Source: a virus. From it: DNA of 64,000 bases. Where the stretch lies: the IMG/VR virus record IMGVR_UViG_3300025141_000046, positions 29,275 to 93,274 of that record; one strand, written 5' to 3'. The notes below the pieces were generated by a model that searched no databases, had not been told where the DNA came from, and saw only the letters and a list, made by a program, of their open reading frames with translations. The position numbers were made by a program, and so were the translations under genes. Within the stretch, counting starts at the first letter, position 1; each line of letters opens with the position of its first letter. Of this stretch, positions 48,015-64,000 are shown piece by piece.

Positions 48015-48374
48015 CTACCCCTCTATTTTTCCATAAATATCATTCACATCAATAGCTTTGTCTTCTTCTTTTGCTATGATCTCAGCAAGTCTCAAAATTT
48101 GATCATTAGATTTTGACATTCTTTCGAGATATTTTGACAAAATTGATCCGTAGGTGGCGTGATTGGTCAAGTTTCCCTGGGTCTGGAATAAAAGATCTGT
48201 AAGCAAAATACCTGCGTTCTCCCTATCACTCAGCGCATTTTCATATATTTCTTTCCACAGAAGTTTTTTCTTATCTGCTGTACTCTCTAGGGAGTCAAGA
48301 AGTTCAGAAAATTTTGATATCTTTTCTTCTTTTTCCCTTACTTTCTTCATGAATGACTTTTTTTCATTACTCAT
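48015..48374 (-). CDS. Conserved helical protein between sigma factor and spike genes (119 aa)
   Basis: An all-helical protein: a coiled-coil start (KKVREKEEKISKFSELLDSL), then KKLLWKEIYENALSDRENAG, ILLTDLLFQ and SKYLERMSKSNDQILRLAEI. The IYENA..DRENA...L.DL ... KYLERMSK.NDQ pattern recurs, as I recall, in marine T4-like phages, without known function. Its ATG overlaps the sigma gene's TGA (ATGA), with GGAGAT in the end of that gene as the ribosome binding site. Possibly a baseplate assembly factor. Confidence 0.8.
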   Translation of the reverse strand: MSNEKKSFMKKVREKEEKISKFSELLDSLESTADKKKLLWKEIYENALSDRENAGILLTDLLFQTQGNLTNHATYGSILSKYLERMSKSNDQILRLAEIIAKEEDKAIDVNDIYGKIEG

Positions 48375-49108: not shown

Positions 49109-49422
49109 TTTTCAATACTTTCCTTATATTCTTCCAAAGAATCATCGGTTAATCTATTTGCAATCACTAAAAGTGAATCACGAGTCCTTCCTATGTCGTC
49201 AACAACCTGTCTTACTTCGACAGAGTCGAAAAAAATAGGTATTTCTAAAACTTTTGACATAGAGGTGTATCTTTGATCAATACTGTCTAGACATTCTTCA
49301 ATTGCATCTTGCATTCTTAATATGATTATTCCGTGCTTTATGTTAAAATAAATAGATATAACAAGAAGGACAAAAAGCAATAAAGACATAGCAAGAAGAA
49401 TATTTGAAAACCCTATTGACAT
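49105..49422 (-). CDS. Small single-pass membrane protein (105 aa)
   Basis: An N-terminal hydrophobic helix (ILLAMSLLLFVLLVISIYF, residues about 8-26) is followed by a helical, acidic cytoplasmic-type domain (QDAIEECLDSIDQRYTSMSK ... QVVDDIGRTRDSLLVIANRL). Proteins of this plan occur in T4-like marine phages near gp55; the function is unknown. The gene overlaps the preceding glycosyltransferase by 10 bp and the sigma gene by ATGA. Confidence 0.78.
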   Translation of the reverse strand: MSIGFSNILLAMSLLLFVLLVISIYFNIKHGIIILRMQDAIEECLDSIDQRYTSMSKVLEIPIFFDSVEVRQVVDDIGRTRDSLLVIANRLTDDSLEEYKESIEK

Positions 49423-50585
49423 TTTTTAATTATTTCTCCAATAACTTTATCGTATATTTGGCAAATAGACTTTCGCGAGTATTCAGACCTAATTCTTTCT
49501 CCAAGCTGTATAGACCACTTTTTTGGCTCATGCGACTTAGATTTGAATTTTTTAACTTTTTTCTTAAAGTCTTTTTCACTTGGGTTTGCCCAAGATGAAT
49601 TGTCAACAAAAATTCTATTATCAACTTTTTCAGGTGGTATTTTTATTAAATCGTAGCCTATTTTTAAAAATTTTCCGAGAGCTAGAAACTCTGTATGCGC
49701 GGACCAGTTTGTAGCAATTACAGGAAGATCTGATGCTGCGGCCTCTAAAAGAGGTAATCCAAAGCCCTCGCCTCTAGTTAGGCTAATGAGAGCTTTTATT
49801 GATTCATTTTTATACATTCCTGCAATTTCGTCGGGATATAAGTTTCCGTGGACGAGGTGAATCTTCGGGTATTGCCCCTTTCTAACTTCAGAAATTAATT
49901 TTCTGACAAGATCGGTTGTTAGCTGTCTATCTATTGTTGTCCCTCTTCCGTGATTTGTCTTCAATACTATTCCAACATCCGGGTCATCATGAAATGCTTC
50001 ACAGAGCCACTTTATTGTATAGAAAATATTTTTTCTATCAGTTGCTGGAGTTTGTCCTGTAAGCTGTGATAGCAGCAAGAAATTAAAATTAGTATCAAAA
50101 TTCATCTCGGAAAACTTTTTACTTAAATTTCCAGAAGATATTTCTTCAAAAAACCACTCAGGAATAACGTAGATATCAACTTCGATATTTCCTGAATTTT
50201 CGAGACATGATTTTGCATGTTCTGACGGTACTATGACTGCATCCATTTTATTGCATGCTTCTATCCAGTTTGGGGGACACATATCTGTTTCAACTATAGC
50301 TGATATCCCAATATTTATTCTTGCCATATTTGGATCCCACTCATCAGGCAGCTGAACCTGAAAAGATATATCAGCGATCTGATCGCTAGTCTGAGTCATT
50401 GACATAATTCTTCCTATCATTCCGGACTCTAAGTCAGAATTAATAAGCCAGGGCGTATTTCCCCAGTTCACTACTTGAGTCTCTACATCAAACATGCTTG
50501 ATTCATCAAGATATGAAAATATTTGCCTAGAGTGAACTCCGTAGCCACTCACAGATAAAAGCGGTGCTCTAATTATTGCTCTCAT
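49413..50585 (-). CDS. Glycosyltransferase, GT4-like (390 aa)
   Basis: A GT-B fold retaining glycosyltransferase. The C-terminal half has LTRGEGFGLPLLEAAASDLP with the E-x7-E motif, then VIATNWSAHTEF, which binds the sugar nucleotide. The N-terminus (RAIIRAPLLSVSGYGVHSRQ) has the glycine-rich loop of the acceptor domain. The neighbouring upstream gene encodes a second enzyme of the same family. Donor and acceptor are not predictable from sequence. Whether it acts on DNA, virion protein or cell surface is open; the other cluster genes favour a glycan. Confidence 0.88.
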   Translation of the reverse strand: MRAIIRAPLLSVSGYGVHSRQIFSYLDESSMFDVETQVVNWGNTPWLINSDLESGMIGRIMSMTQTSDQIADISFQVQLPDEWDPNMARINIGISAIVETDMCPPNWIEACNKMDAVIVPSEHAKSCLENSGNIEVDIYVIPEWFFEEISSGNLSKKFSEMNFDTNFNFLLLSQLTGQTPATDRKNIFYTIKWLCEAFHDDPDVGIVLKTNHGRGTTIDRQLTTDLVRKLISEVRKGQYPKIHLVHGNLYPDEIAGMYKNESIKALISLTRGEGFGLPLLEAAASDLPVIATNWSAHTEFLALGKFLKIGYDLIKIPPEKVDNRIFVDNSSWANPSEKDFKKKVKKFKSKSHEPKKWSIQLGERIRSEYSRKSICQIYDKVIGEIIKKCQ

Positions 50586-50600
50586 TTTTTAAAAATCCAA

Positions 50601-51842
50601 CTAAATAGTGTTGACTTTATACCTCTCATAGGTTTCCTCCCAATTATTAATTTTTTTCCAAAGTAGCTTATCCCACTCATCAATCATATCCTGATAGTTG
50701 AACTCTGATTCGACATATGACATTACTTTTTGTGAAAGTGATAGCTTATCTTTATCTGACATATCATATAATTTCATAATTGCCGAGCCTACTGTAGATG
50801 TGCTGACATAGTCCTCATAGATGTATGGGACGTTCTGAGATCCCACTAGTGTTCTAAACTCTATCGGCAGCGCGATGCCGTTCTCAGTTCCATCTCTATG
50901 ATCTTCGACCTGTCTAGTCAGACCGCCTGTTTTAGTTGCGATGATAGGTGTTCCTGTCATCATTGATTCAAGTGTTGATAGACCGAAACCCTCTGCAAAG
51001 CTAATGTTTAGACAAAAATCTGATATATTGTAAAGTGTATTCATCTGGTCAAAATCTATTCTATCTCTTGAGAAAAGAACGTTATCTTGAACATTTAACA
51101 TTTCTGCAACCTGAATTAAATTTGCGCCCTCACTGTCGTGAGGGTCACAGTGCATAACCATTGTTGCTTTTCTATGCCCATGCTTTCTCTCTAGCATGTC
51201 TAGGAATATTTTCCAAGATTCTAAAACATCTGAAGATCTCTTTCTTTTTGCATTTCTATTGATCCATATTCCCACAAAGTGATCTTCACGATTGCTTCCA
51301 ATAAGTTCTTTTTTACTCTCGAGAATTTTATCCTCTGGAAGCTTAAAGAATATGTTCTTTGGAACCGTGTGAGGTACAAAATTTGTTTTTTCAGGATAAT
51401 GCTCAGATATCTGTGTATAAGTGTGATGTGAGTGACAATTTAAAAGATCAGTTGAATCATAAAGCGGTGAATTAAATTTTGGATACGGTGTATTATCCCA
51501 GACATGCCACCATACTATAGGGCACATCTGGTGTATTTCATCCTCCATTTCAAAAAGCCAGATAAAAAATCTTGGATCAGTAAATATTAAAAGAGCATCT
51601 GGCTTCTCTGTTGCAAGAGTGACCCTTAGCATGTCCCTATTGCCAAAGCCATCTATCGGCTTAATGATAAAGTCTTCATTGACAACAACTGTCCGATAGT
51701 CGTTGTGCTTAAGAGCTGCTCCAAACTGTCTAAATGTATACCTATTTTTTTCTAAGAGGCCTTCAATTAGATGTCTTGTTTGTACACCTACACCAGAAGT
51801 TGATAGTGCATGATCTGAAAGCACCAGTATTTTCTTTTTCAT
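50601..51842 (-). CDS. Glycosyltransferase, GT4-like (413 aa)
   Basis: A GT-B glycosyltransferase. It begins KKKILVLSDHALSTSGVGVQ, the donor/acceptor loop, and has ISFAEGFGLSTLESMMTGTP with the E-x7-E motif, then IIATKTGGLTRQVED. The ATG at 51842 is preferred since GGAGAACAA stands directly before it; an in-frame start at 51869 lacks this. It lies 15 bp before the GT4 gene downstream and the two may act in sequence. Substrate unknown. Confidence 0.88.
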   Translation of the reverse strand: MKKKILVLSDHALSTSGVGVQTRHLIEGLLEKNRYTFRQFGAALKHNDYRTVVVNEDFIIKPIDGFGNRDMLRVTLATEKPDALLIFTDPRFFIWLFEMEDEIHQMCPIVWWHVWDNTPYPKFNSPLYDSTDLLNCHSHHTYTQISEHYPEKTNFVPHTVPKNIFFKLPEDKILESKKELIGSNREDHFVGIWINRNAKRKRSSDVLESWKIFLDMLERKHGHRKATMVMHCDPHDSEGANLIQVAEMLNVQDNVLFSRDRIDFDQMNTLYNISDFCLNISFAEGFGLSTLESMMTGTPIIATKTGGLTRQVEDHRDGTENGIALPIEFRTLVGSQNVPYIYEDYVSTSTVGSAIMKLYDMSDKDKLSLSQKVMSYVESEFNYQDMIDEWDKLLWKKINNWEETYERYKVNTI

Positions 51843-51901
51843 TTGTTCTCCAGCAGGTAAATAGTACACATTATTATGTGCCTGTTAAAGATAGAAACGT
51901 G

Positions 51902-52744
51902 TTATCTACAATCGTCAGTATTGTAATACGGGCAATACTTGCAAGAATTTCTATTTTTTAAATAGGCTCCATTCTCGACTGCGACAATCATATTTCGCAT
52001 AAGTTTCACACCTCTATCTAGAGTTTTTTGTCCTACAGATACAGCAACTAATTCACAAATTTTTCCAGGCTTACCGCCCCTCTTAAGCAATATAAATCCG
52101 CATCTAATATCTTTAAGGTCAATATTATGCTTTCGAGACCAAAAGTACTTATACAGAATAAGCTGTGCTGTCATACCGAGATCTTGCTTTTTATCTCTTC
52201 GCCATCCCCAGGCACCTGCAGTCTTCCAGTCAATAATCCAGTAGTTGTATCCCGTGCCTTTTTTCTTTGGAACTTTTATAACTCCATCGATGAATCCTTT
52301 AAATAAGACACTTTTGTTTTCAACAGTTTCGTATAGTGACTCTTCTGCATTAAAACATTCCCACTCTGGAAATTCTTTGTCTAAAAATTCAGGTATTTCC
52401 GCCCACATATTTTCAGCCCAGGAGCACCATTCATCAACAGGGACATGTTTGTACCAGCCAGGCTGAGCATTATACCATTCGGGATTTTCAAAACCATTCT
52501 TTTCCCATGCACTTCTTATTTCACTTAAAAGTTTTTTCTTATCAACTTTTTTTGCATCCAGGATTGTCTCACAACCAGCGTGGACTGCTGTACCAAAATC
52601 AAGGTATGGCGATGGTTCAAACTTATCAATTTTATCAATATAGGCTAGTTTGTGTCGCCAGGGACATTCTTTCCATATTTTTATCTCTGAGAATGATATG
52701 TGCGGTTTTCCAGTGGGAAAGCTAGATTTTAATAAATTTTTCAT
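51902..52744 (-). CDS. Cas4/RecB-like PD-(D/E)XK nuclease with Fe-S cysteines
   Basis: A 280-residue exonuclease-type protein. The N-terminal SFSEIKIWKECPWRHKLAYI carries the first cysteine (C27), followed by FGTAVHAGCE with the conserved histidine (H55). The catalytic core is GFIDGVIKV (D near 155) and WIIDWKTAG (D and K near 173-175), the PD-(D/E)XK signature. The C-terminus NSCKYCPYYNTDDCR supplies three more cysteines (268, 271, 279) for an iron-sulfur cluster as in Cas4/AddB. ATG at 52744 behind AGGAGAAAC. No Cas1/Cas2 or repeat array is nearby, so a CRISPR role is not indicated; phage recombination or DNA processing is likelier. Confidence 0.9.
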   Translation of the reverse strand: MKNLLKSSFPTGKPHISFSEIKIWKECPWRHKLAYIDKIDKFEPSPYLDFGTAVHAGCETILDAKKVDKKKLLSEIRSAWEKNGFENPEWYNAQPGWYKHVPVDEWCSWAENMWAEIPEFLDKEFPEWECFNAEESLYETVENKSVLFKGFIDGVIKVPKKKGTGYNYWIIDWKTAGAWGWRRDKKQDLGMTAQLILYKYFWSRKHNIDLKDIRCGFILLKRGGKPGKICELVAVSVGQKTLDRGVKLMRNMIVAVENGAYLKNRNSCKYCPYYNTDDCR

Positions 52745-52810
52745 TGTTTCTCCTACTTTTATTCTACACAAAAATATTGCAATTTTTAAGAATATAAGCC
52801 TAAATTTTAT

Positions 52811-53431
52811 CTAATGATAGTAGCCTAGAAATCTAGCAAACTCAATAATTTTCTGATTAATAGCAACTGTGTCAAACATATTTCTATTTTTTATATAAAA
52901 TCCTGGCTCACCTAAAGATTTTTCATTGATGTGGCCGCCGTGCAAATGAGATAGATTGTCAATTATTCCAAAATTTTTACTATTTGAAATTTCTATATTT
53001 CTCTCTATGCATGTTTGATCTTTTATCTCTTTGAGCTTGTCTATGCTTATTTTTATATTTAGAAAATCAGCTATTATCTGTATTCTTTTTTCAGGATTGT
53101 AATAATATTTCTCATATTCTATAAACAAAACATTTCTTCCAATATTTGAATCTCTTACTAGATTCTCATAGTTTGATTTTTGAATCATTATTCTTCTGCT
53201 CGCATGACGAGCTGCTACTGATTTTGGGTAAACGTCGCTTAATTTTAAGAATAGTGAAAAGTATGCCTCAATTGGATTTCTATAAGTGTATATGCAACTT
53301 TCTAGACCTGGAACATACTCATGCGTCTTTTCAAGCCTTTGTCCTAACAATAGTGATGATATTTGCCATGATACAGTAGATCCAGATCTTTCCATTCCTA
53401 TACAAGTTACAAAATCTTCCAATAAATTCAA
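52811..53431 (-). CDS. Sulfotransferase-like protein (206 aa)
   Basis: A P-loop PAPS-dependent sulfotransferase. The 5'-phosphosulfate loop is IGMERSGSTVSW (residues 11-22), and the 3'-phosphate site is YTYRNPIEAYFSLF with R51 and S59. Both match the family motifs in the right order. The C-terminal SLGEPGFYIKNRNM region resembles the end-of-domain RKG-like loop. Start is TTG at 53431; a later ATG would remove the P-loop. It sits between the nuclease and the epimerase genes in the sugar cluster, so it may sulfate a sugar. At 206 residues it is shorter than typical (about 280). Confidence 0.83.
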   Translation of the reverse strand: MNLLEDFVTCIGMERSGSTVSWQISSLLLGQRLEKTHEYVPGLESCIYTYRNPIEAYFSLFLKLSDVYPKSVAARHASRRIMIQKSNYENLVRDSNIGRNVLFIEYEKYYYNPEKRIQIIADFLNIKISIDKLKEIKDQTCIERNIEISNSKNFGIIDNLSHLHGGHINEKSLGEPGFYIKNRNMFDTVAINQKIIEFARFLGYYH

Positions 53432-53445
53432 CCTGTCGCCCTTTA

Positions 53446-54336
53446 TTAATACTTGTGTATTTTATCTTCTAGGGAGTAGAGAGGAGTCCACCCAAGGTCT
53501 ATTTCTGTTCTAGTAATATCTGCAAGTGTTTCTCTCACCTCGGCTGGTCTCTCACTAATGTGCTCAATTCCAGCACCCATGTTTATCATATCAGCTATCT
53601 CAATTATTGAATAATTCTTGCCCGTTCCAACATTATAAATTTTATGCTCTATCTCCGACTCAATTGAGCAAATGTTGGCACTGACAACATCTTCGACATA
53701 AGTGAAGTCTCTTCTTTGCAATCCATCGCCTACAACTGTTACTCTTTTCCCCTCGCTAGTCTGTCTTTTAAAGAGGCCAATTACAGGTGCATACTGTCCT
53801 TTAATAGGTTCCCGGGGACCGTAAACATTGAAATATCTTAAAACTATTGAATTTAAGCTGTATAGCTGAAAATATAACTTGCAAACTTGCTCACCCATCC
53901 ACTTTGACATTGAGTATGGATTTAGACAATATGGGGGCATATTTGGCTGGAATGGAATTGTATTCTGTTGGCCATATAGTGATGACGTACTAGAATATAC
54001 AATCTTCTTTGCAGAGTACAACCTGGACCACTCTAGGACCCTCTGTGTACCTACTACGTTAACATCGAAGCAAGCTCCGGGATTTTCAATAGTAGGTTGA
54101 ATCCTACTACGAGCGGCAAGATGAAAAACATAGTCGACACCACTAAAAATATCGCTACAGTCATCTTTAGAAATATCTTTTTTCCAATAGTTGGCTTTGT
54201 CATTATAATAAAATTCCTCATTTTCCTGTGCAGATAAATCATCTATAACTCTAACATCATGACCCAGATAGACAAGCCTGTCAACAATATGACTTCCAAT
54301 AAACCCGCAGCCTCCAGTTACAAGACTAGTCTTCAC
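53446..54336 (-). CDS. NAD-dependent sugar epimerase/dehydratase, extended SDR (296 aa)
   Basis: The N-terminus KTSLVTGGCGFIGSHIVDRL holds the Rossmann GxxGxxG. The catalytic region is VYSSTSSLYG (serine) and LNPYSMSKWMGE (Y-x3-K). RYFNVYGPREP and RRDFTYVEDVVSA are typical of UDP-hexose 4-epimerase/UDP-glucuronate-type enzymes. Substrate cannot be fixed. It starts with GTG, 11 bp inside the end of the upstream dehydrogenase gene. A second, distinct member lies at 55200-56147. Confidence 0.9.
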   Translation of the reverse strand: MKTSLVTGGCGFIGSHIVDRLVYLGHDVRVIDDLSAQENEEFYYNDKANYWKKDISKDDCSDIFSGVDYVFHLAARSRIQPTIENPGACFDVNVVGTQRVLEWSRLYSAKKIVYSSTSSLYGQQNTIPFQPNMPPYCLNPYSMSKWMGEQVCKLYFQLYSLNSIVLRYFNVYGPREPIKGQYAPVIGLFKRQTSEGKRVTVVGDGLQRRDFTYVEDVVSANICSIESEIEHKIYNVGTGKNYSIIEIADMINMGAGIEHISERPAEVRETLADITRTEIDLGWTPLYSLEDKIHKY

Positions 54337-55165
54337 TTACAGCTCTTCCCTTCATGGTAATCCAGTCTTTATTTTTTCTATATCTACCATTTGAAAAAGA
54401 TACATTCTCCAATAGTGATACATTAACATCTCTCTCAGTTCCAAAAAATATCATAGCTGCCAAGTCTTTTGGAAAGCAGTGGCCACCAAAGCCCCTGTCG
54501 CCATCAGGCCCGGGAACTGCAAGATGACTATTTCCAATTCTTTTATCAAAAAGTGCATATTCACAAACTTTATCATAATCTACACCAGAAGCTGCGCATA
54601 TATCATACATCTGGTTGGCAAATGTAACCTTTGTAGATAGAAAGCAATTTATAAAATACTTTACAGATTCTGCTGTATTTGATCCTGTTTTAATTATTGG
54701 AATTGTCGGAAATGCTTTTCTAAACATTTGTTTAATCTTTCCAGTAGACGGTCTTGGTCCACCAATTATAATTCTTGTCTGATTTTTAAAATCTTCAAAT
54801 GAGTTAGCCTCAGTTAGAAATTCAGGGCTGAAGCATACGTCAACCCTTGTACTTCTATTTATTCTTTCCGTCGTACCGGGTGGGATTGTAGACTTTATTA
54901 CAATAATCGGGAACGTATTATAAAATGCACACTCATCATCAATTTTTTGAATTGCTGACTCAAGAATTCTAGTATCACACTGACCTGACTTTTTCATAGG
55001 AGTTGGCAAGCAGACAAATATAATATCGGCGCATGAAGTAATTTCTGAATGTGAGTTTTTTGACAATGTTGAATCTATGTCATACGCCATTATTTCATAA
55101 AAGTTTTTCAAACCCTCTCTTACTGCAGATCCAACAAATCCTTGTCCTATTATTCCAATTTTCAT
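54326..55165 (-). CDS. Nucleotide-sugar dehydrogenase, short UDP-glucose/GlcNAc dehydrogenase-like (279 aa)
   Basis: Oxidises a UDP-sugar at C6 to the uronic acid. Motifs are MKIGIIGQGFVGSAV (NAD), FVCLPTPMKKSG, IKSTIPPGTTE, VCFSPEFLTEAN and the catalytic cysteine in GFGGHCFPKDL (near 230). The family usually has about 400-450 residues with a C-terminal nucleotide-binding domain, which is absent here: the protein ends about 45 residues after the cysteine. Such short forms may still work through the central dimer helix. Strong AGAGGTC site before the ATG. It stands between the two epimerase genes. Confidence 0.9.
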   Translation of the reverse strand: MKIGIIGQGFVGSAVREGLKNFYEIMAYDIDSTLSKNSHSEITSCADIIFVCLPTPMKKSGQCDTRILESAIQKIDDECAFYNTFPIIVIKSTIPPGTTERINRSTRVDVCFSPEFLTEANSFEDFKNQTRIIIGGPRPSTGKIKQMFRKAFPTIPIIKTGSNTAESVKYFINCFLSTKVTFANQMYDICAASGVDYDKVCEYALFDKRIGNSHLAVPGPDGDRGFGGHCFPKDLAAMIFFGTERDVNVSLLENVSFSNGRYRKNKDWITMKGRAVSED

Positions 55166-55199
55166 CTATGACCTCTTTTTATATTATCTAGCATAGCTA

Positions 55200-56147
55200 T
55201 TAGCTCATGTATCCTAGACTTTCCATATCATATTTTGATACCCATGATATAAAGTCTCTCAAGCCAGACTCGAGTGAAAATTTAGGCTCATATCCAAAAG
55301 ATCGTGCTTTGGATATATCAGCTAGAAGCTTAAAAACCTCACCCGGTCTTGGTTCAGTGTGGACTATCTTTGACGAAGATCCAGAAATTTCTATAATTTT
55401 TTGTGCTATATCATTGATTGTAAAATCTTTGCCAACTCCAGTATTCATAATTGTGCCACTAGGCGTATTTTCTGAGACTATATATCCAGATACTGCATCT
55501 TCAATATATTGATAATCTCTTGTCTGTGTTCCATCACCGTATATTAAAATGGGCCTATTATCAAGTGCTCTTCTAACAAATATAGATATAACTGCTCCGT
55601 AACCTGAAGATTTCTGTCTTGGGCCGAATGTATTAAAATTCCTAATAACTCTAGCATTGGTTCCAAATGTATGATGATATGCTGTACATAAAGATTCAGC
55701 AGCAACTTTTGATGCAGCATACGGTGATTGCGGATTTAGAGTTGACGATTCTGAATGAATGCCTTCGCCATACACCTCTGCTGATGATGCCAATGTCATT
55801 CCTATACTAGAATTTTCTTTACAAATTTCTAAGAAATTTTGTGTGGATGTTAAGTTGATATCTAGTGTCTCTTTCGGCCTGATTATAGATTTTTCCACAT
55901 GAATCTGGGCTGCAAGATGGAAAATATAGTCGCAACTATTGGATATTTCTTTCATTCGAGAAAAGGATCTAACATCTGCTTCGATAAAGTGAAAATCAGG
56001 ATAGTTAAAAAGCCCTCTAATATTATTTAGATTTCCATTATAAAAATTGTCTACACACACTACTCTATGACCATTATTTAAAAGCTTTTCACACAAATGT
56101 GAACCTATAAATCCGGCGCCGCCGGTAACCAAATATCTTTTTTGCAT
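55200..56147 (-). CDS. NAD-dependent sugar epimerase/decarboxylase, extended SDR (315 aa)
   Basis: The N-terminus RYLVTGGAGFIGSHLCEKLL has the NAD motif. SSAEVYGEGIHSESS and NPQSPYAASKVAAESL hold the catalytic serine and Y-x3-K. IRNFNTFGPRQKSS and TRDYQYIEDAVSGY are characteristic of the UDP-glucuronate decarboxylase/UDP-glucose epimerase branch. It may act on the product of the adjacent dehydrogenase. GGAGACTAAT precedes the ATG. The length is normal. Confidence 0.9.
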   Translation of the reverse strand: MQKRYLVTGGAGFIGSHLCEKLLNNGHRVVCVDNFYNGNLNNIRGLFNYPDFHFIEADVRSFSRMKEISNSCDYIFHLAAQIHVEKSIIRPKETLDINLTSTQNFLEICKENSSIGMTLASSAEVYGEGIHSESSTLNPQSPYAASKVAAESLCTAYHHTFGTNARVIRNFNTFGPRQKSSGYGAVISIFVRRALDNRPILIYGDGTQTRDYQYIEDAVSGYIVSENTPSGTIMNTGVGKDFTINDIAQKIIEISGSSSKIVHTEPRPGEVFKLLADISKARSFGYEPKFSLESGLRDFISWVSKYDMESLGYMS

Positions 56148-56168
56148 ATTAGTCTCCTAAAATATTAT

Positions 56169-56816
56169 TTAATAATTTTCAATTGGTGTAATATTATACC
56201 ACCAGTAGGGATGAGTTAAAACATACAAGTTTTTTAAATCTTTTTTTGTTAAATTTTCATAAAAAGATCCGTCTCTCCACATGCAGCTACTATCTGATAT
56301 GTATTTGAACTTTTCAAGCAACATATTGTCGTATGCTTGCGTTAGATTTTTTTCGCTATCAATATAAAAAGATTTTGTCCTTGTAGGCTCGTGTGGACAA
56401 ATTGACTCTATCGATATGTCAAAAATATCCTCTAAAATATTAATCTCTTTTTTTAAAAAATCACAAATAGGCTTATTAATCAAGTGATAAAAATCAGACT
56501 CATAATGTAAACCTATTTCATGACCCATATTTTTAATTTCCCGGATTTTATCAAAATCTTTCAGGCACAGCGGATTATAGCCGTGTGAGTGAAGCCTAAT
56601 AAAATAAGTTGCATTGATATTGTTTTCATTTTCTAGGGTGGCCATTTTGACGGCTGTATCTACCTGCGTGTCGACATCATGCCTTAGTATAGCCGACCCT
56701 TTTTCTTCCGACTTTTTCCAGTCTTTAAGCGTATAAAATTTAAATCCTAGATTATTAGCTAACTTGAGACACCTATCATAATTTGCTAAGCTAAAATTGT
56801 CTTCTTGACTTTCCAT
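56169..56816 (-). CDS. Polysaccharide-deacetylase-like protein (215 aa)
   Basis: NodB-type fold. SAILRHDVDTQVDTAVKMAT carries the HDVD metal aspartate, and MGHEIGLHYESDFYHL the second motif, where H-x3-H is expected; here histidines appear as GHEIGLHYE. ICPHEPTRTKS may be the third loop. Members remove acetyl groups from sugars, but many phage and surface-polysaccharide homologues are of uncertain activity. The gene starts inside the end of the WbqC-like gene (31-bp overlap) behind GAGGGGC, so the two proteins are coupled. Confidence 0.82.
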   Translation of the reverse strand: MESQEDNFSLANYDRCLKLANNLGFKFYTLKDWKKSEEKGSAILRHDVDTQVDTAVKMATLENENNINATYFIRLHSHGYNPLCLKDFDKIREIKNMGHEIGLHYESDFYHLINKPICDFLKKEINILEDIFDISIESICPHEPTRTKSFYIDSEKNLTQAYDNMLLEKFKYISDSSCMWRDGSFYENLTKKDLKNLYVLTHPYWWYNITPIENY

Positions 56817-57472
56817 AGCCCCTCATGTAAAATTAAATCTACGACGCTGATGTGATTATCTTCTATTACTGGTAAATCAAATTGATTTTCCATATAAGCT
56901 AATTCAATTCCGTGATTTTCAAAAACTTGCTCACTTTGATAATTTTTTGCACCTTGTCCCGAAATATATGTTTTCCCGTCACACAGGTTAATAATTTCAA
57001 TTAGCATATATTGATTTTTCGCATCTCTTTCAAATGATAAACTAGAAGATTTTACAAGCTTGGTATCTATTTCAAGATAATCACAAATAATCTTTATAAG
57101 ATCAATATTAAAATTTGAAAGATTTATTGTACTGTGAGATAGTTTTTTTTCATAATGATTTATAATACTATCTAAAAATTTAGTTTCTCTAGTTTTTGAA
57201 TGTCTCATTTTAAGATGTTTTATATGCTTTTTTAAATTTGATGTATTGCACTCTACGTCTAGTATTTTTTTACTGTAAGAATCCTTTCCAATCGGACATG
57301 ACAGCCAGAAGCTACTCTTAAAATTCTTATCAGCTGAAAATCTATTTCTATTAAAGAATGAATTTTTTGAGCATTTTGCTGTATCTAGAAAAACAAATAT
57401 ATCGCTAGCATGAATTTTTTTAAAAAATCCTGCCCATGGAAGAAAGTTAGGCTGGTGTATTCCAACCTTCAT
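56786..57472 (-). CDS. WbqC-like family protein (228 aa)
   Basis: The N-terminal signature MKVGIHQPNFLPWAGFFKKI, then SDIFVFLDTAKCSKNSFFNR and NRFSAD, is that of WbqC family proteins, found in O-antigen and capsule loci; the biochemical role is not established (some are linked to amino-sugar acyl transfer). The middle is basic and helical, and the C-terminus (GKTYISGQGAKNYQSEQVF) has the family's GxGA segment. Start overlaps the preceding aminotransferase by ATGA. Confidence 0.87.
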   Translation of the reverse strand: MKVGIHQPNFLPWAGFFKKIHASDIFVFLDTAKCSKNSFFNRNRFSADKNFKSSFWLSCPIGKDSYSKKILDVECNTSNLKKHIKHLKMRHSKTRETKFLDSIINHYEKKLSHSTINLSNFNIDLIKIICDYLEIDTKLVKSSSLSFERDAKNQYMLIEIINLCDGKTYISGQGAKNYQSEQVFENHGIELAYMENQFDLPVIEDNHISVVDLILHEGLWKVKKTILA

Positions 57473-58275
57473 CCTAAACTTTCTCTGATCTTTTTAGCAA
57501 TATTCTCTGCTATTGGACAATTTCCCACAATTCCTCTTGAAACATACGCTGGTTGTTCATAAACTACATTTGGATAATGTCCTTGATCTGGACCTCTCAA
57601 TCCAAGCTCAGACTTAATTCCCTCCATGTGTAGTTTCATTTGCTCGTACGCCATTAGACAAAGAGGCTCAGCAAGTCTAAAATTAAAACCTATTCTAACA
57701 TGGTTGTATTTACCGTCCTGACCTTGATTACAAATAGACCGAATCTTTTTTGAATTTAGGCACGAACCTTTTGGAATACAGATCATTCCGCCTTCAAATG
57801 TTGAAATATTCTTAGTCTTGTAGAATGAAAATGTTCCGCAGTCTGACATCATTCCTGCATATTTTCCTGATTCATGCTCTGCACCAAAGGCTTGAGCTGT
57901 ATCTTCTATGACTACCAGGTTATGCTTTGCAGCTACAATGCCTATTTTTTCCATAGCACAAATGCGACCATAAAGATGGACAGGAATAATTGCCCTAGTC
58001 CTATCTGTTATAGCTTTTTCAATCTTTTCAGGATCTATTAGATATGTTTCAGGATCTATATCAACAAATACAGGCGTGCCGCCAGCAATTATTATAGCAT
58101 TAGATGTTGCAATATAGGTAAACGGAGTTGTGATAACTTCATCGCCTTGCTGTAGATCTAGAGACCATAACGGTGCAATTAGAGCCGATGTTCCATTGTT
58201 GACAGCTATACAATCTTTCAGATCAAATCTTTCTTTGACATAGTTTTCAAATATATTTCTTACTATTGCTGGCAT
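57469..58275 (-). CDS. Shortened DegT/DnrJ/EryC1 aminotransferase (268 aa)
   Basis: A PLP-dependent sugar aminotransferase of the WecE/WbpE/ArnB type. VNNGTSALIAPLW, DEVITTPFTYIATSNAI, VVIEDTAQAFGAEHESG (PLP aspartate) and FSFYKTKNISTFEGG (PLP lysine near 155) are all present. The family usually has about 360-400 residues. Here the first about 25 residues are missing, and after YEQMKLHMEG the sequence jumps to a late family segment (GHYPNVVYEQPAYVSRG, NCPIAENIAK), so roughly 100 residues of the C-terminal domain are gone. The frame stays open. ATG overlaps the preceding TAA (TAATG). It may be inactive, or a minimal enzyme. Confidence 0.88.
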   Translation of the reverse strand: MPAIVRNIFENYVKERFDLKDCIAVNNGTSALIAPLWSLDLQQGDEVITTPFTYIATSNAIIIAGGTPVFVDIDPETYLIDPEKIEKAITDRTRAIIPVHLYGRICAMEKIGIVAAKHNLVVIEDTAQAFGAEHESGKYAGMMSDCGTFSFYKTKNISTFEGGMICIPKGSCLNSKKIRSICNQGQDGKYNHVRIGFNFRLAEPLCLMAYEQMKLHMEGIKSELGLRGPDQGHYPNVVYEQPAYVSRGIVGNCPIAENIAKKIRESLG

Positions 58276-58745
58276 TATTTTTTTCTCAGTAGCCTTGCTG
58301 GATTTCCAACGACAACAGTGTTATCATCTACGTTTTTTGTCACTACTGATCCTGCGCCGACCAATGCGTTGATACCTACTGTATTACCGCAGATAATAGT
58401 AGAATTTGCACCGATACTGCTGCCATCCCTGAAGTGTGTTTCTTTGAATCTTTCCTTCCAGTCTCCGCTAGCAACTGGTTCAATGTCATTTGTTGTTATA
58501 ACATTTGGACCGATGAAAACATTATTACCTATGACGACACCCTCGTAAAGCAATGAATGATTTTGAACTAAACAATTATCACCAATAATGACATTATTTC
58601 CAATATGGACACCCTCACCAATAATGCAATTTTTTCCAATTTTTACACCCGACATTACATGAGAAAATGCCCAAATCTTTGTATTTTCACCAATGTCTAC
58701 TTCAAAATCAACTATGGCAGTTTCATGTATAAAAATATTGGTCAT
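58275..58745 (-). CDS. Hexapeptide-repeat acetyltransferase, WbpD/WlbB-like (156 aa)
   Basis: A left-handed beta-helix made of [LIV]-G-x4 hexapeptides: VDIGENTKIWAFSHVMSGVK, IGKNCIIGEGVHIGNNVIIG and so on. The loop ITTNDIEPVASGDWKERFKE resembles the UDP-2-acetamido-3-amino-glucuronate N-acetyltransferases (WbpD/WlbB). The C-terminus VGNPARLLRKK is the usual end. It immediately precedes the DegT aminotransferase, which would supply the 3-amino sugar, and the dehydrogenase at 54326 would supply the uronic acid. Substrate remains inference. Confidence 0.9.
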   Translation of the reverse strand: MTNIFIHETAIVDFEVDIGENTKIWAFSHVMSGVKIGKNCIIGEGVHIGNNVIIGDNCLVQNHSLLYEGVVIGNNVFIGPNVITTNDIEPVASGDWKERFKETHFRDGSSIGANSTIICGNTVGINALVGAGSVVTKNVDDNTVVVGNPARLLRKK

Positions 58746-58769
58746 ATTCTCTAGCTTTTATTAATAATT

Positions 58770-59046
58770 CTATATTTCACAAGTAAAGTTTACAAAGAAC
58801 TTTACTGCATCGAGGTAAGTTTTATTAATAAATTTTTGTGGACCTTTTGCAAACCAGATTTTGTTGTCAGAGAAACAAGTCTTTTGGCGCAATTCTAATT
58901 TTTGATTTATAAAATTTTAACTCCACAGGATCTGCTGCAAAAATAATTTCCGGCTTAAATCCAGATATGCAAAGATTTTGAATTCCTGCCTGAGTTTTCC
59001 AGCGCTTAAAGTTATATGCAAATACTCCAATTCTTAAGTTTGTCAT
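58770..59046 (-). pseudogene. Possible frameshifted gene remnant
   Basis: This covers most of the only gene-free stretch over 300 bp (58746-59063). From an ATG at 59046 there is a 59-codon frame (NLRIGVFAYNFKRWKTQAGI, then SGFKPEIIFAADPVELKFYK) that ends at TGA 58867. A +1 shift just before that stop opens a second frame (SDNKIWFAKGPQKFINKTYL) that runs on for about 32 codons to TAG at 58770. The first part looks like the beginning of an alpha/beta (Rossmann-like) sugar enzyme, in keeping with its place after the formyltransferase. It could be a decayed gene, a sequencing error or a genuine short protein. Family not identified. Confidence 0.5.
58782..58806 (-). other. 9-bp inverted repeat before acetyltransferase gene
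   Basis: AGTAAAGTT (58782-58790) and AACTTTACT (58798-58806) with a 7-nt loop. On the minus strand it lies about 37 bp before the acetyltransferase ATG, and no T-run follows, so it is not a standard terminator. It may be an mRNA leader hairpin. Confidence 0.4.
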
Positions 59047-59063
59047 TTTTTTCTCAAATGCTT

Positions 59064-59792
59064 TTATTTAGATCTTATTTTTTCTAAAATACTAGAAGCA
59101 TCTTTAATTGAAATTTTATTATCAATTATAATCTTTTTACAATCTTTGTCATAATAGAAAGCCCCGGGCCAGGGCGAAGCAAGTGCCCTAATTAAATTAT
59201 ACACCTGATCTTCAGTCATAGTAGGAAGTATTTCTCCATCACAGGGATATCTTTTTCTACATTCAAATTCATCACCAGTTATATCCTGGTCACGAAAAGT
59301 CAAGCTTTTAGATTCTAACTGGCTAGAAAGCTGAAGAAGGATATCAGCTGAAGTTGATATTCCATTTTTCAATACATCATTGGCGTCATCATGTATTGAA
59401 ATTTTAAACTTTTTCTGAATTATTATTTTTCCACCGTCTATCTTGGGAGAAAGAGTATGAAGTGTTACTCCAGATATTTTTTCCCCATTTATTATTTGCC
59501 AATTAAGTGCATGTGATCCTGCGTAATTTGGCAATAGTGATCCATGAAAATTGGCTGCAATGAGCTTTGGAATAGACAGTATTTCAGACTGTATTATCCT
59601 GCTATAGTAGAAGCTTAAAATTATATCAGGAGAATAGTCATTGCATTTTTTTAAAAATAAGGGATACTGAGTATCTACTCTTTTAGGATGATTATCAGGA
59701 TAGATAAAAAGAATATCATCAAATATAGTTTCTGCTAAATCTATGAATTCTTTATATGCTTTGTTTCTTGTTGTGAATATTATTGCTTTCAT
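59064..59792 (-). CDS. Formyltransferase-like protein (sugar or Met-tRNA type; 242 aa)
   Basis: A 10-formyltetrahydrofolate-dependent formyltransferase fold. The catalytic triad is present: N81 and H83 in AANFHGSLLPNYAGSHALNW, and D119 in LSPKIDGGKII. The region between, INGEKISGVTLHTL, is typical. The C-terminal segment (LIRALASPWPGAFYYD) also matches the family. At 242 residues it is shorter than Met-tRNA formyltransferase (about 310), and with sugar genes around it a role in N-formylating an amino sugar is likelier. It overlaps the end of the upstream glycosyltransferase gene by 41 bp. Confidence 0.9.
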   Translation of the reverse strand: MKAIIFTTRNKAYKEFIDLAETIFDDILFIYPDNHPKRVDTQYPLFLKKCNDYSPDIILSFYYSRIIQSEILSIPKLIAANFHGSLLPNYAGSHALNWQIINGEKISGVTLHTLSPKIDGGKIIIQKKFKISIHDDANDVLKNGISTSADILLQLSSQLESKSLTFRDQDITGDEFECRKRYPCDGEILPTMTEDQVYNLIRALASPWPGAFYYDKDCKKIIIDNKISIKDASSILEKIRSK

Positions 59793-60954
59793 CTAGAATC
59801 TTATTTCCTGAAAGGTTAAGACACTTAACTAAAGTTTCTTCACATACATCGAAGAAATCTTTGTCCCCCCAGTTGTGATTTTTTATAAAATTTTCCTTAC
59901 TTGTTCTTAGTACAGCCTCAGATATCTTTTTATTTAAGTCATTGGAAATACTTTCGTCATAGACCATGCACGACTCTTTATAAAAATCTGGAATAGTAAC
60001 CGGCTTATTACAAATTGTCAGACACCGTGCTCCAATACTTTCACCGAGAGTCCTAGGGTATCCTTTAGGTTGTCCAAAAACTCTCATATCCATGGGTATA
60101 AGTGATATTTTACTAAGACATTTAATTTCGTGTGCTAGATCTTGGCACACAGACCCAATCAAGTAATAGTCTAAACCTTTTGCGTCACAGACTTTAATAA
60201 TTTTATTAACATAGTCGATGTGCTGTGTTGTTCCCATTATTACTATCTTGAAGTCTTTGACAATGTTTGGATCTATTTGATTAAACATGTTTAGCTGATT
60301 CTTTACATGCCACAGTGTCCCGCTTACAGCTATTAAATCTTTCTTTTTATTTTTTATCAAAAATTTATTAAAAAATCTCTGCATGTGAGGATCAGGAGGC
60401 TCACAGAGCTCTTCTTCTTCAAAGTAGTAATTAGCAAATTGATAATTTGGCTTATATGACATAGTTCTAACATTGATAACAAACTTAGAATTTTCCACAG
60501 TCTGTCTATCATCAGGTCTTCTCATCATATTCATTAGAGCAGAAGACCTTGCTATGATTATGTCATATTTCTCTTCTAGCTTTGCTTTTTTGACTACTTT
60601 ATTTCCGTCTATTGTAAATCTCTTATATGCTTTAGAGCCTTTATCATATGTTAAATCTATCATTGATCCCATAAGTGATTTTGACGCATACGATGGCAGG
60701 CCAAGGGCACCCAGTTCATACTGGTATGGTGAAAAATGAGAAAATAATATTTTTATAGGATTTTCAATATTAATAGCTTCTGGATTTATTAAATCAATTA
60801 GCTCACTATTGTCAAAAAAATCTCCCTTCGTTCTGTGACTATTAAACTCTCTTGGGTGGAGTCTTATATCTTCCCTCTTTGACCACTTATCAAAAAGAAC
60901 TGGATTGTCATGTAAGAATCTAGATAGATCTATATCAACTTTTCTCTGCATCAT
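59752..60954 (-). CDS. Predicted glycosyltransferase, GT-B-like (400 aa)
   Basis: The C-terminal half reads like a GT-B donor domain: KDLIAVSGTLWHVKNQLNMF (acceptor/donor linker), FKIVIMGTTQHIDYVNKIIK, ISLIPMDMRVFGQPKGYPRT and LGESIGARCLTICNKPV, the last in the position of the E-x7-E motif. The N-terminal half is unassigned. Two ATG codons are adjacent (60954, 60951). Substrate unknown. It continues the cluster between a methyltransferase and the formyltransferase. Confidence 0.75.
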   Translation of the reverse strand: MMQRKVDIDLSRFLHDNPVLFDKWSKREDIRLHPREFNSHRTKGDFFDNSELIDLINPEAINIENPIKILFSHFSPYQYELGALGLPSYASKSLMGSMIDLTYDKGSKAYKRFTIDGNKVVKKAKLEEKYDIIIARSSALMNMMRRPDDRQTVENSKFVINVRTMSYKPNYQFANYYFEEEELCEPPDPHMQRFFNKFLIKNKKKDLIAVSGTLWHVKNQLNMFNQIDPNIVKDFKIVIMGTTQHIDYVNKIIKVCDAKGLDYYLIGSVCQDLAHEIKCLSKISLIPMDMRVFGQPKGYPRTLGESIGARCLTICNKPVTIPDFYKESCMVYDESISNDLNKKISEAVLRTSKENFIKNHNWGDKDFFDVCEETLVKCLNLSGNKILDESNNIHNKKQSI

Positions 60955-60964
60955 TTTTAAAAAA

Positions 60965-61663
60965 TTATCCGATATTGCTTTGTATCACTAAGTCTTCGTC
61001 TGTGTTTCTTATTTCGTTTAAAAAGTTCTCAAAAAATTCAGACGGAGATGGTCCTAGCCAATCATTGTTAAATACTTCAAAATCAACACTATCTTTCCAT
61101 ACAATAAACACTTCTTCTATTGCGGGATGTGATATATTGCCAATTGGATCAAATGCTTTATTTTCTACAATTGTCACCTTTGGAAAAAATTTCAGCTTCT
61201 TATTTTTTATTGTAATGATCCATCTGTGATGACTATACCCTCTAATTGTTCCGTCTAGCTCAAATCTTTTAAACTCTCTATATTTTGATGGAAAAGATAT
61301 AATCCCAGATTTAGAAATTTGATTGATTTTTTTTAAAACATATGCTGGATGCGCAATATCTTCAAGGGTATGAGTACAGATACAATAATCATATTTTCCA
61401 TTCTCTTCCACATCTTGATCAACTTTTTCCCACAAAAATGGATCATTAATATTTCCTGAGAAGTGCTTTATATTGGGCTTGTTGACATCTCTAAAGTCCA
61501 TCGTTGCATCGATAAAGTCAAATTTATCACTAACATGCTTTTCTTTTCCTCCTCCGATATCAATAATCCTATATTCAGGATTGCTTTTTTTAATTTCCCT
61601 AAGTCGATTAAGCTCTGCGACTTTTTTATTAGCTATGTAGCCTAGTCCTGCTTCAACTATCAT
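60965..61663 (-). CDS. SAM-dependent methyltransferase-like protein (232 aa)
   Basis: A class I methyltransferase pattern: YRIIDIGGGKEKHVSDKFD (motif I, SAM glycine loop) and YDYCICTHTLEDIAHPAYVL (motif IV and following helix), then SKSGIISFPSKYREF. The C-terminal half lacks motifs I can name. It would methylate a sugar or another small molecule in the cluster; the substrate is not predictable. GGGTGAT stands before the ATG. Confidence 0.78.
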   Translation of the reverse strand: MIVEAGLGYIANKKVAELNRLREIKKSNPEYRIIDIGGGKEKHVSDKFDFIDATMDFRDVNKPNIKHFSGNINDPFLWEKVDQDVEENGKYDYCICTHTLEDIAHPAYVLKKINQISKSGIISFPSKYREFKRFELDGTIRGYSHHRWIITIKNKKLKFFPKVTIVENKAFDPIGNISHPAIEEVFIVWKDSVDFEVFNNDWLGPSPSEFFENFLNEIRNTDEDLVIQSNIG

Positions 61664-61679
61664 TTTGTATCACCCATAT

Positions 61680-62438
61680 TTAAAACTCCATGCACTGTTC
61701 GATAATCCTAGACTCAAACTCTTCTAAGTCTTCAAGATTATAATTAAATTTTCCAAAATGAACCTCTCTATCATAATGTATGTGATATATTCTTGGTTCC
61801 ATATGATCTTCTCCAAATTCATTCTTTAAGTTTCTAACTTTTTCCCTAGTAGCTTTTCCCCTAATGTTATATTCAAAAGGAAATGTATGTATTTTAACGC
61901 TGCTATTCCAAAGCGATACTCTGAGGCTTACCTGGTCCCAGCCGTTTGTCTGCTGATAGTATTTATAAAAATACTTCTGCCACATATCTAGAAATTCCCT
62001 TGTTGCATCAGATGAGTTATATGCCATTATTCCGCCGTTAAACTCAGAAAATCCATAAGGTATTGCCTCATACTCCGGTACAAGCTTTGAATATTTCAAT
62101 CTCTTTCTAGCATAGTCATGAACAAGACCTACATCAAATCTATCAAGCACGTCAAACATGTCTGATATATTTCTAACAATAACTGTATCTGAATCTAGAT
62201 ATACTGTTTTTGCAAATGGTGAACTTCCAACAAAATCAACCTTGACTCTAATGTGTTGCGGTTCTATCTTTCCGTAAATATCAACCAATCCGGAAAAATC
62301 TTCTGTTCTTGGCTGATCTGTAAATAATGCTACTGGCTCACTGTTGAATCTTTTTAACGTCTTGATTGACATTAATGCCTCTTTCGTAAAAGATTCACCA
62401 AATGCTATATACAAAAACCCTTTATCAATTTTTTCCAA
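61680..62438 (-). CDS. GT-A glycosyltransferase, GT8-like (252 aa)
   Basis: A nucleotide-diphospho-sugar transferase. The metal-binding DXD is in AKTVYLDSDTVIVRNISDMF (D82, D84). FSEFNGGIMAYNSSDATREF and QQTNGWDQVSLRVSLW are the typical acceptor and D-Q motifs of this fold. The C-terminal YHIHYDREVHFGKF may carry the last histidine. The start is TTG behind AGGAATAAAT. Donor and acceptor unknown. Confidence 0.87.
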   Translation of the reverse strand: MEKIDKGFLYIAFGESFTKEALMSIKTLKRFNSEPVALFTDQPRTEDFSGLVDIYGKIEPQHIRVKVDFVGSSPFAKTVYLDSDTVIVRNISDMFDVLDRFDVGLVHDYARKRLKYSKLVPEYEAIPYGFSEFNGGIMAYNSSDATREFLDMWQKYFYKYYQQTNGWDQVSLRVSLWNSSVKIHTFPFEYNIRGKATREKVRNLKNEFGEDHMEPRIYHIHYDREVHFGKFNYNLEDLEEFESRIIEQCMEF

Positions 62439-62441
62439 AAT

Positions 62442-63167
62442 TTATTCCTCACCTTTCTTAAATTTAAAAATCGCTGAAAGATCTTCGGAAAGATCATTAT
62501 CTATATCATAAATTGCTATATCACGCTTTGAAACTTCTTTAATGTATTGTAAAAAATTGTCATGTGTAAACGTATCTTGCTTATGTGTGCAATGTATATA
62601 GTTTGGATGACCGCGGTGGGGACCATGAGTTCCTTTCCAGCATGGAAGAATATAAAATAAAATTGCATCCGGATTAATATGTTTCTTAATTGATTCAAAG
62701 TGAAGCGATGGATTTGAAAGATGTTCTAGGTTATGACTACTATAGACAACATGAACTTTCTCATTTTGAAAAATATCTGATATTTTTAGTGATCTCTCTA
62801 TTTGAAAGTTTTCAACATTTCCCTGAAATATCTCATTAAAAAATGAGGGTGCTAGATCAATGCCTATACAATTTATTCTATTGTCTATGCTCTTAATGAA
62901 GTCTATCTCATTGATATCTCTGCAACCGCAAGCTAAAATGTTTATCTTCTTTTCACCCTTAAAGGACCTCGACAATAGTAATCTAAATTTTTCTCTAAGA
63001 TTTTCTAAATAATCTCTATTTTTTTCACCATGCCATTTCTCATGGGACCTTTTCTTTCGAGTTTTAATGTGTTCGTGACCTGTATTAAACTGGTAGTGTT
63101 CATTAACTTTTATATTATCATAATAAAAATCATCATGTAATAATGTGTAAGTTTTATAATTTTTCAT
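62442..63167 (-). CDS. SAM-dependent methyltransferase-like protein (241 aa)
   Basis: NILACGCRDINEIDFIKSID is a motif-I-like loop, CIGIDLAPSFFNEIF the acidic motif II, and VHVVYSSHNLEHLSNPSLHF the motif IV region, the N.EH pattern of the Methyltransf_11/23 type. A histidine- and cysteine-rich loop follows (GTHGPHRGHPNYIHCTHKQD), unusual for the family. The ATG at 63167 is chosen because it overlaps the upstream TGA (ATGA) behind CAGGGC; a longer start at 63218 would run inside the neighbour. Confidence 0.8.
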   Translation of the reverse strand: MKNYKTYTLLHDDFYYDNIKVNEHYQFNTGHEHIKTRKKRSHEKWHGEKNRDYLENLREKFRLLLSRSFKGEKKINILACGCRDINEIDFIKSIDNRINCIGIDLAPSFFNEIFQGNVENFQIERSLKISDIFQNEKVHVVYSSHNLEHLSNPSLHFESIKKHINPDAILFYILPCWKGTHGPHRGHPNYIHCTHKQDTFTHDNFLQYIKEVSKRDIAIYDIDNDLSEDLSAIFKFKKGEE

Positions 63168-64000
63168 TTTTTTGCCCTGCTTATTTTCAAAATTTCTCTG
63201 TAATATCGAAATGCCCATTCATGAGGATCATAATTCTTCTTTAAAAAATCTTTTGCATCTTTGGCTATGATATTTCTATTTATAGGATCTGATAGCCTTG
63301 AAAGAGATCGGAGCCACCCTTTTTCACTGTGTGCTACATATCCGTTCTTCTCATCACCAAATAGATGAAAATTGCTTGGACTAAAATCAGCAACTACAGG
63401 AACACCAAGTGCCATAAAAGCTAATGCTCTGCCGTTATTTGTCTTATTTTTATATCTCATAATGAAATCAGTATTAAACTTTCCGTATTCGTTATTTACA
63501 TCTTTTGACAATGAAGTCAAGTCATGGACACCAGGACAAATTCCAATATCACAAGACTTTATATCTTCTTTTATTGTATCAATATTCCACTTTTTATAAA
63601 CTATTGGTATATCAGGCTTGCCAAGTTCCGGAGTCCAGTTTATTTCATCTTCTGTCTTTTCACTTATGATATTTAACTCAATATCTCTACTTTTTGAAAA
63701 ATTTTCAAGTGCAGATTTTAATCCGCCTACGAATGAAAACAAGTGAGGAGTCCAGCCGTGATAACATATCTTCAAAATATCAACTTTGTCATGCTCAACG
63801 ATACTGCTGTTGTGATATAGAGATTCTATATGTGCATTTAGTATTACATTTTTATGGAAAGAAAGACTATCTGCCTCCTCTAGTGAGCCAACCATGACAA
63901 AATCAAAATCAACAGAAGTCAAATCTCTCGGTGGCGTGATTGTACCGACAATTATACTCGGGTTTACTAGTTTAATCTGGTGAAAAACTGAATGAATATA
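63164..64000 (-). CDS. Glycosyltransferase-like protein, 5' end beyond window
   Basis: The frame is open to the right edge of the window (26 codons upstream of a TTG at 63922), so the true start lies outside. The sequence reads SVFHQIKLVNPSIIVGTITP at the start, then VDILKICYHGWTPHLFSFVG, KSCDIGICPGVHD and NNGRALAFMALGVPVVADFS, the last like the donor-binding segment of GT-B enzymes, though the conserved glutamates are replaced. It ends with KNYDPHEWAFRYYREIL. A glycosyltransferase is likely from the fold pattern and cluster; the substrate is unknown. Confidence 0.72.
   Translation of the reverse strand, partial: YIHSVFHQIKLVNPSIIVGTITPPRDLTSVDFDFVMVGSLEEADSLSFHKNVILNAHIESLYHNSSIVEHDKVDILKICYHGWTPHLFSFVGGLKSALENFSKSRDIELNIISEKTEDEINWTPELGKPDIPIVYKKWNIDTIKEDIKSCDIGICPGVHDLTSLSKDVNNEYGKFNTDFIMRYKNKTNNGRALAFMALGVPVVADFSPSNFHLFGDEKNGYVAHSEKGWLRSLSRLSDPINRNIIAKDAKDFLKKNYDPHEWAFRYYREILKISRAKK

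Follow-up and report, generated by a model that had tools for sequence, protein, structure and literature searches.

Inspection of the right-hand end of the viral record IMGVR_UViG_3300025141_000046 (IMG/VR; 93,274 b) reveals a row of sugar genes that includes a shortened aminotransferase of the DegT family, referred to here as the mini-DegT. The stretch of DNA analysed (the window, 64,000 nucleotides) runs from base 29275 to base 93274 of this record and stops where the record itself stops on the right. Open reading frame (ORF) calling identifies 17 head-to-tail minus-strand ORFs extending from 49413 to the window end (64000), the last of which is cut by the record end, and their content is about 16 carbohydrate-type genes together with one PD-(D/E)XK nuclease. 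The first-pass annotation had recognized the row but counted fifteen sugar genes besides the nuclease, and it passed over the shortness of both the DegT protein and the UDP-sugar dehydrogenase as well as a formyltransferase stub at 58870–59046. The components of the cassette, including short-chain dehydrogenase/reductase (SDR) enzymes, are as follows.

49413..50585, minus strand: GT_A, GT1-type glycosyltransferase, part of the anchor (Pfam Glycos_transf_1, E=8e-9; 41–67% identity in nearly all relatives)
50601..51869, minus strand: GT_B, GT1-type glycosyltransferase, part of the anchor (Pfam match; 56–77% identity in relatives; homologues in the cultured phages immuto and Mel-JY01)
51902..52771, minus strand: PD-(D/E)XK nuclease, part of the anchor (PF12705, E=4.5e-21; phage exonuclease PHROGs; syntenic in relatives)
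52811..53431, minus strand: sulfotransferase (PF00685, E=2.5e-6)
53446..54336, minus strand: EPI1, NAD-dependent sugar 4-epimerase-type SDR with an STSSLYG motif (best PDB match 4zrm, a UDP-glucose 4-epimerase, E=3e-51)
54326..55165, minus strand: short UDP-sugar 6-dehydrogenase (UGDH) of 279 aa, lacking the C-terminal domain (Pfam N-terminal and central domains only)
55200..56147, minus strand: EPI2, SDR with an SAEVYG motif, in the slot held by a Gfo/Idh oxidoreductase in relatives
56169..56816, minus strand: g8, conserved protein that travels with WbqC (no family match; invariant His/Asp motifs in 4 phages)
56786..57472, minus strand: WbqC-like protein (PF08889, E=1e-45)
57469..58275, minus strand: mini-DegT aminotransferase, 268 aa (PF01041; 15-member alignment; AlphaFold; Foldseek matches PerA and WbpE)
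58275..58745, minus strand: left-handed beta-helix N-acetyltransferase, WlbB/WxcM-like (PDB 3mqg, E=1.5e-36)
58870..59046, minus strand: formyltransferase pseudogene stub, the first 59 aa and then a stop (75% identity to the L007 N-terminus)
59064..59792, minus strand: ArnA-type formyltransferase (best PDB match ArnA, E=1e-28; NCBIfam ArnA, 151 bits, below cut-off)
59752..60954, minus strand: GT_C, putative glycosyltransferase (weak Pfam match; 44% homologue in L007)
60965..61663, minus strand: methyltransferase (PF13489, E=2.6e-7)
61680..62438, minus strand: GT8/nucleotide-diphospho-sugar transferase-type protein (PF03407, E=7e-5; 77–80% identity in L098 and L099)
62442..63218, minus strand: methyltransferase (PF13489, E=1.3e-5)
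63164..64000, minus strand: GT_D, glycosyltransferase with its 5′ end open at the record end (75% identical 350-aa homologue in L007/L098)

Pfam matches back the two GT1-type glycosyltransferases, the nuclease, the sulfotransferase, the two epimerase/dehydratase-type SDR enzymes, the UDP-sugar dehydrogenase and WbqC, and likewise the DegT protein, the hexapeptide acyltransferase, the formyltransferase, the two methyltransferases and the GT8/Nucleotid_trans-type protein; the matches of GT_C and GT_D are weak (E 0.066 and 0.0035, respectively). A family for the 56169–56816 protein was sought in Pfam, NCBIfam, PHROG and PDB, with no match.

The mini-DegT aligns to positions 29–235 of the 360 in PF01041, and its 268 residues fall some 90–100 short of full-length DegTs, a loss of roughly one quarter to one third. 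Three parts of the full-length protein are missing from it: the arm at the N-terminus, some 70 small-domain residues and the C-terminal end. No mini-DegT member has a complete C-terminal small domain, the internal block and the C-terminal end being gone in all of them. Several further features bear on this truncation. First, a search with the mini-DegT recovered sixteen more viral loci (two of them copies of earlier loci) and one bacterial metagenome-assembled genome (MAG), at 68–85% identity over the full length; one further locus (L100) was reached through a search with EPI2, and in all the mini-DegT is present in about 18 non-redundant records. Second, residues D125, S150, K155 and N198, which we take to form the pyridoxal phosphate (PLP) site as elsewhere in the family, are invariant across the 15-member alignment, as are positions Q128 and H233-Y234-P235, and the large PLP domain with its catalytic lysine, aspartate and phosphate-binding residues is present. 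Third, the ratio of nonsynonymous to synonymous substitution (dN/dS) is below 0.1 wherever dS is estimable, with synonymous sites near saturation. Fourth, AlphaFold with full-length DegTs included in the alignment returns a confident PLP fold (pLDDT 89.3, pTM 0.89), although from mini-DegTs alone the model is poor (pLDDT 55); the lowest confidence falls at residues 219–226, the deletion junction. Foldseek matches of the model are PerA (GDP-perosamine synthase), WbpE, and 8e75, annotated as an aminotransferase for UDP-N-acetyl-3-amino-glucosaminuronic acid. Gene decay as the cause of the shortness was considered and rejected: because the same truncation is kept in about 18 records and dN/dS is below 0.1, the mini-DegT is under constraint rather than decaying.

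The short form is not general among DegTs. Ordinary long DegTs are present in viral locus L049 and in the other bacterial loci, searches of cultured phages and plasmids gave no mini-DegT match above 60% identity, and those loci with checked ORFs in the cultured-phage, plasmid and bacterial searches encode full-length DegTs, with the mini form in the one bacterial MAG. In the contig of that MAG (L050:8001-9696) the mini-DegT and a Gfo/Idh gene lie between ORFs that resemble, by eye, menaquinone-biosynthesis genes, and presence in just 1 of 234 genomes of the order suggests either transfer or a chimeric assembly. Two other loci (L044:8001-12072 and L045:3504-10127) have the mini-DegT clustered with CMP-sugar synthetase-like (CTP_transf_3) and NeuB-like genes (NeuB by eye), which suggests that it may also be used in nonulosonic-acid pathways, and in L047:8001-8806 it occupies two overlapping frames, reflecting a frameshift or a sequencing error. 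In the open-access literature searched, neither a shortened DegT nor this cassette is described. We put at even odds the proposal that mini-DegTs form a new class of sugar aminotransferases, minimised by nature and able to work with the usual small domain missing, and that they act in phage glycan cassettes as a fixed hub for interchangeable keto-sugar makers (Gfo/Idh or SDR) and N-acyltransferases. Such an enzyme would test how small a working fold-type-I sugar aminotransferase can get, and its sequence is a tag by which further cassettes of this kind can be located.

Most mini-DegT loci have a Gfo/Idh oxidoreductase gene directly after the mini-DegT or no more than three genes away. The corresponding PF01408 match is present in 14 of the 16 mini-DegT records of one search, the exceptions being the window record and L041, and another search placed it in L003, L004, L029 and, weakly, L007. 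A search of the whole 93,274-b window record gave no PF01408 match, so that the first-pass statement that a WbpB-like 3-oxidase is missing holds beyond the window. The order DegT-WbqC-g8-Gfo/Idh-UGDH of L029 and L003 is instead DegT-WbqC-g8-EPI2-UGDH in the window; the window and L041 EPI2 proteins are 65% identical, and in L041 the EPI2 gene adjoins the mini-DegT. A search with EPI2 added L100, in which EPI2 comes directly after the mini-DegT and Gfo/Idh is absent, and L101, where EPI2 occurs but the mini-DegT does not. Taking one record per phage (n=18), 15 have Gfo/Idh without an EPI2 orthologue and 3 have EPI2 without Gfo/Idh, a table with an exact probability of 1/816. The replacement of Gfo/Idh by EPI2 is probably recent in the window lineage, because the tree joins the window mini-DegT to that of L029 (support 95/90), and we infer that EPI2 supplies the keto-sugar in the window phage.

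One specific form that this could take is an Arn-like route, in which UGDH would generate UDP-GlcA, EPI2 a UDP-4-keto-pentose or other 4-keto sugar, the mini-DegT would aminate C4, and acylation of the product would fall to either the ArnA-type formyltransferase or the acetyltransferase. Every step would then be encoded within the window: the keto-maker slot is occupied by an enzyme close to human UXS1 with the catalytic Glu kept, and the formyltransferase is closest to ArnA. However, EPI2 does not carry the motifs of UDP-GlcA decarboxylases (ArnA/UXS), having SAEVYG and PYAASK rather than SEVYG and YDEGK, and it lacks the YWG...YDEGK stretch of UXS1 sequences. Its top NCBIfam scores are to dTDP-glucose dehydratase models, below cut-off, and it lacks the Asp of RmlB. 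Moreover, no change in the mini-DegT accompanies the partner swap, and we regard the Arn-like route as unlikely, albeit less so than the alternatives that follow.

The N-acyltransferase next to the mini-DegT also differs between phages. A formyltransferase lies directly before the mini-DegT in L007, L003, L039 and L029, and the window stub corresponds to the first 59 residues of that enzyme (75% identical to the intact 239-aa L007 gene), with the WlbB-like acetyltransferase sitting between the stub and the mini-DegT. The acetyltransferase is of the WbpD/WlbB type by similarity, its best solved-structure match being the WlbB-type 3mqg, and its orthologues (62–64%) are directly before the mini-DegT in L037 and L038 and two genes upstream in L045. 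A second formyltransferase lies further upstream in the window and is of the ArnA type by its best solved match, though below the NCBIfam cut-off. Judged from this arrangement the N-acyl step is swapped in the window phage, a WlbB-like acetyltransferase taking the place of the formyltransferase, and the swap would be seen in progress, as a pseudogene stub. The stub is from a single metagenomic assembly, and an error there is possible.

The first-pass annotation assigned the module to the synthesis of 2,3-diacetamido uronic acids, which in its fullest form is a classical WbpA-B-E-D-like route to UDP-2,3-diamino uronic acid with WbpB either provided by the host or lost to fragmentation of the record. 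Several observations speak for parts of this: the acetyltransferase is WlbB-like, the mini-DegT fold matches WbpE, and Gfo/Idh adjoins the mini-DegT in relatives, with acetyltransferase-DegT-Gfo/Idh in a row in L037/L038 and UGDH directly after Gfo/Idh in L007, L029 and L003. A UDP-GlcNAc-type dehydrogenase is less certain: the window UGDH scores 132/126 bits to NCBIfam UDP-Glc dehydrogenases against 59/47 to the available UDP-ManNAc dehydrogenase models, its matches include no WbpA model, and it has no C-terminal domain. Several mini-DegT phages have the amino-sugar module with no UGDH nearby, and in the closest relatives Gfo/Idh lies between DegT and UGDH, where the window has EPI2, and not to the right of the window, where a WbpB-like gene might have been sought. 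The evidence thus falls short of establishing a 2,3-diacetamido uronic acid as the product, WbpB being absent and the dehydrogenase resembling the UDP-glucose enzyme, and we consider this route improbable. The short UGDH itself, at 277–301 aa in all close relatives (window, L002–L030), is by this constancy a stable phage form; that of phage C48C1 has 319 aa.

A UGDH-based scan identified 29 viral loci in IMG/VR, and most of these keep the gene order UGDH, (epimerase), nuclease, GT_B, GT_A and an orthologue of 48371–49108, and many relatives have an EPI1-type epimerase paired with UGDH, whereas what lies upstream of UGDH varies from locus to locus. The recurrence of this anchor order in independent contigs, at ~40–77% protein identity, excludes chance. 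The large terminase subunit (TerL) is closest to those of Microcystis phage Mel-JY01 and Flavobacterium phage immuto, placing the phage in the T4 superfamily. Downstream of the cassette are a small one-helix protein, three more ORFs and baseplate wedge genes, and beyond the opposite end of the cassette in L098 stands a large ORF that weakly matches a tail spike. Host contamination was considered and rejected, since the combination of anchor and phage late genes is found again in independent contigs; the cassette is thus phage DNA, as the first-pass annotation of a phage carbohydrate module had it, with an amino-sugar core. Its organization suggests that this T4-superfamily phage carries a glycan cassette of a hypervariable kind, comprising a fixed anchor and an exchangeable amino-sugar module.

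Three possible acceptors for the sugar were weighed. The first-pass annotation offered both virion decoration and remodelling of the host surface, the latter blocking superinfection. WbqC, DegT, left-handed beta-helix and glycosyltransferase families are typical of O-antigen loci and all are present in the cassette, but no initiating phosphoglycosyl transferase (PF02397) or Wzx flippase (PF01943) was found in the 36 records searched, and the cassette encodes no multi-span membrane protein, so that the entire export route would need to be borrowed from the host. With no membrane or export component found, virion decoration fits better, and remodelling seems a rather poor prospect. Alternatively, the cassette could hypermodify phage DNA, with sugars placed on a hydroxymethylated base; phage glycosyltransferases that act on DNA are cited in PMC12619734, and some phages, C48C1 for example, have UGDH amid their replication genes. 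However, among the records searched (the window record not among them) the thymidylate-synthase/hydroxymethylase family (PF00303) is present only in the 273-kb G019 and in none of the relatives up to 185 kb, and the window neighbours are late and baseplate genes, making DNA modification the least probable of the alternatives. Virion glycosylation has a precedent in Mycobacterium phages, also cited in PMC12619734. The lack of an initiating transferase, flippase or multi-span membrane protein, together with the gene neighbourhood, favours an acceptor inside the cell, for which a virion protein is the most likely candidate.

We therefore favor, with a probability of about 55%, a swappable glycan cassette that places an amino sugar onto an acceptor within the cell, a virion protein being the likeliest. 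Gene order, the truncation, the kept catalytic residues, the exchange of partners and the formyltransferase remnant are read from the sequence itself, whereas the activities of the enzymes, the sugar and its acceptor are inferred. In the predicted pathway, the keto-maker, which is Gfo/Idh in the majority of phages and EPI2 in the window phage, would yield a nucleoside diphosphate (NDP)-keto-sugar, which the mini-DegT would transaminate with PLP; an N-acyltransferase would acylate the amine (the WlbB-like acetyltransferase in the window phage, a formyltransferase in close relatives); and cytosolic glycosyltransferases would attach the sugar to the acceptor. Swapping the keto-maker and the N-acyltransferase would alter the decoration while the mini-DegT stays constant, and phages with this cassette thus probably make amino-sugar decorations of their own and exchange them. 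The nearby baseplate genes and the tail-spike-like gene of L098 count in favor. Several points weigh against it. First, L100 was reached through EPI2 and the 18-record table is thus a non-random sample, and because L101 carries EPI2 alone the pairing with the mini-DegT is not obligatory. Second, apart from one variable C-terminal position, no mini-DegT residue convincingly tracks the EPI2–Gfo/Idh swap, which is odd if the two partners differ in product, one giving a 3-keto sugar and the other a 4-keto one. Third, some Gfo/Idh calls are weak (L007, 17.8 bits, below cut-off), and in L044 the gene is far from the mini-DegT. Fourth, the window record is incomplete and Gfo/Idh may stand elsewhere in the genome; more generally the records are fragments, so the absences are provisional, and it is mainly from absent membrane parts and gene neighbourhood that the acceptor is deduced. 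Sugar genes of phages are mostly catalogued as dispersed auxiliary functions; the about 18 records described here point to an amino-sugar module that can be reused, built around an identifiable hub enzyme whose neighbours can be swapped.

Two observations lie outside the cassette. At 4072–7209 of the window a single 1045-aa ORF fuses an Mre11/SbcD-type phosphoesterase to a Rad50/SbcC-type ATPase, proteins usually encoded by two genes. In L031 (G000:C1:11466-17805) adjacent look-alike ORFs of 1031 and 1069 aa are possibly duplicated tail sheath genes, judged from their N-termini only.

Comparison with known systems shows both shared and distinct features. The cultured T4-superfamily phages immuto and Mel-JY01 likewise have variable sugar genes after the nuclease and the pair of glycosyltransferases, but are distant from the window phage (GT_B ~31% identity) and, like the other cultured phages, have no mini-DegT above 60% identity. 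The WbpA, B, E, D, I pathway of Pseudomonas aeruginosa (PMC10622841) shares a dehydrogenase, an aminotransferase, a WlbB/WbpD-type acetyltransferase and, in relatives, the Gfo/Idh partner; the window phage differs in having no Gfo/Idh in the record, EPI2 in the oxidase slot, a short UDP-glucose-type dehydrogenase, and the mini-DegT in place of an aminotransferase of about 360 aa. With the ArnA/ArnB (UDP-L-Ara4N) pathway the cassette shares an ArnA-type formyltransferase, UGDH, an aminotransferase and a UXS1-like SDR, although EPI2 is without the decarboxylase signature, no membrane transferase was found and there is an extra acetyltransferase. Finally, in contrast to the DegT/DnrJ/EryC1/StrS aminotransferases PerA (3bn1) and WbpE (3nu7), the mini-DegT lacks the N-terminal arm, the ~70-aa internal small-domain block and the C-terminal end, yet it shares with them the fold of the large PLP domain, the catalytic lysine and the PLP-site residues.

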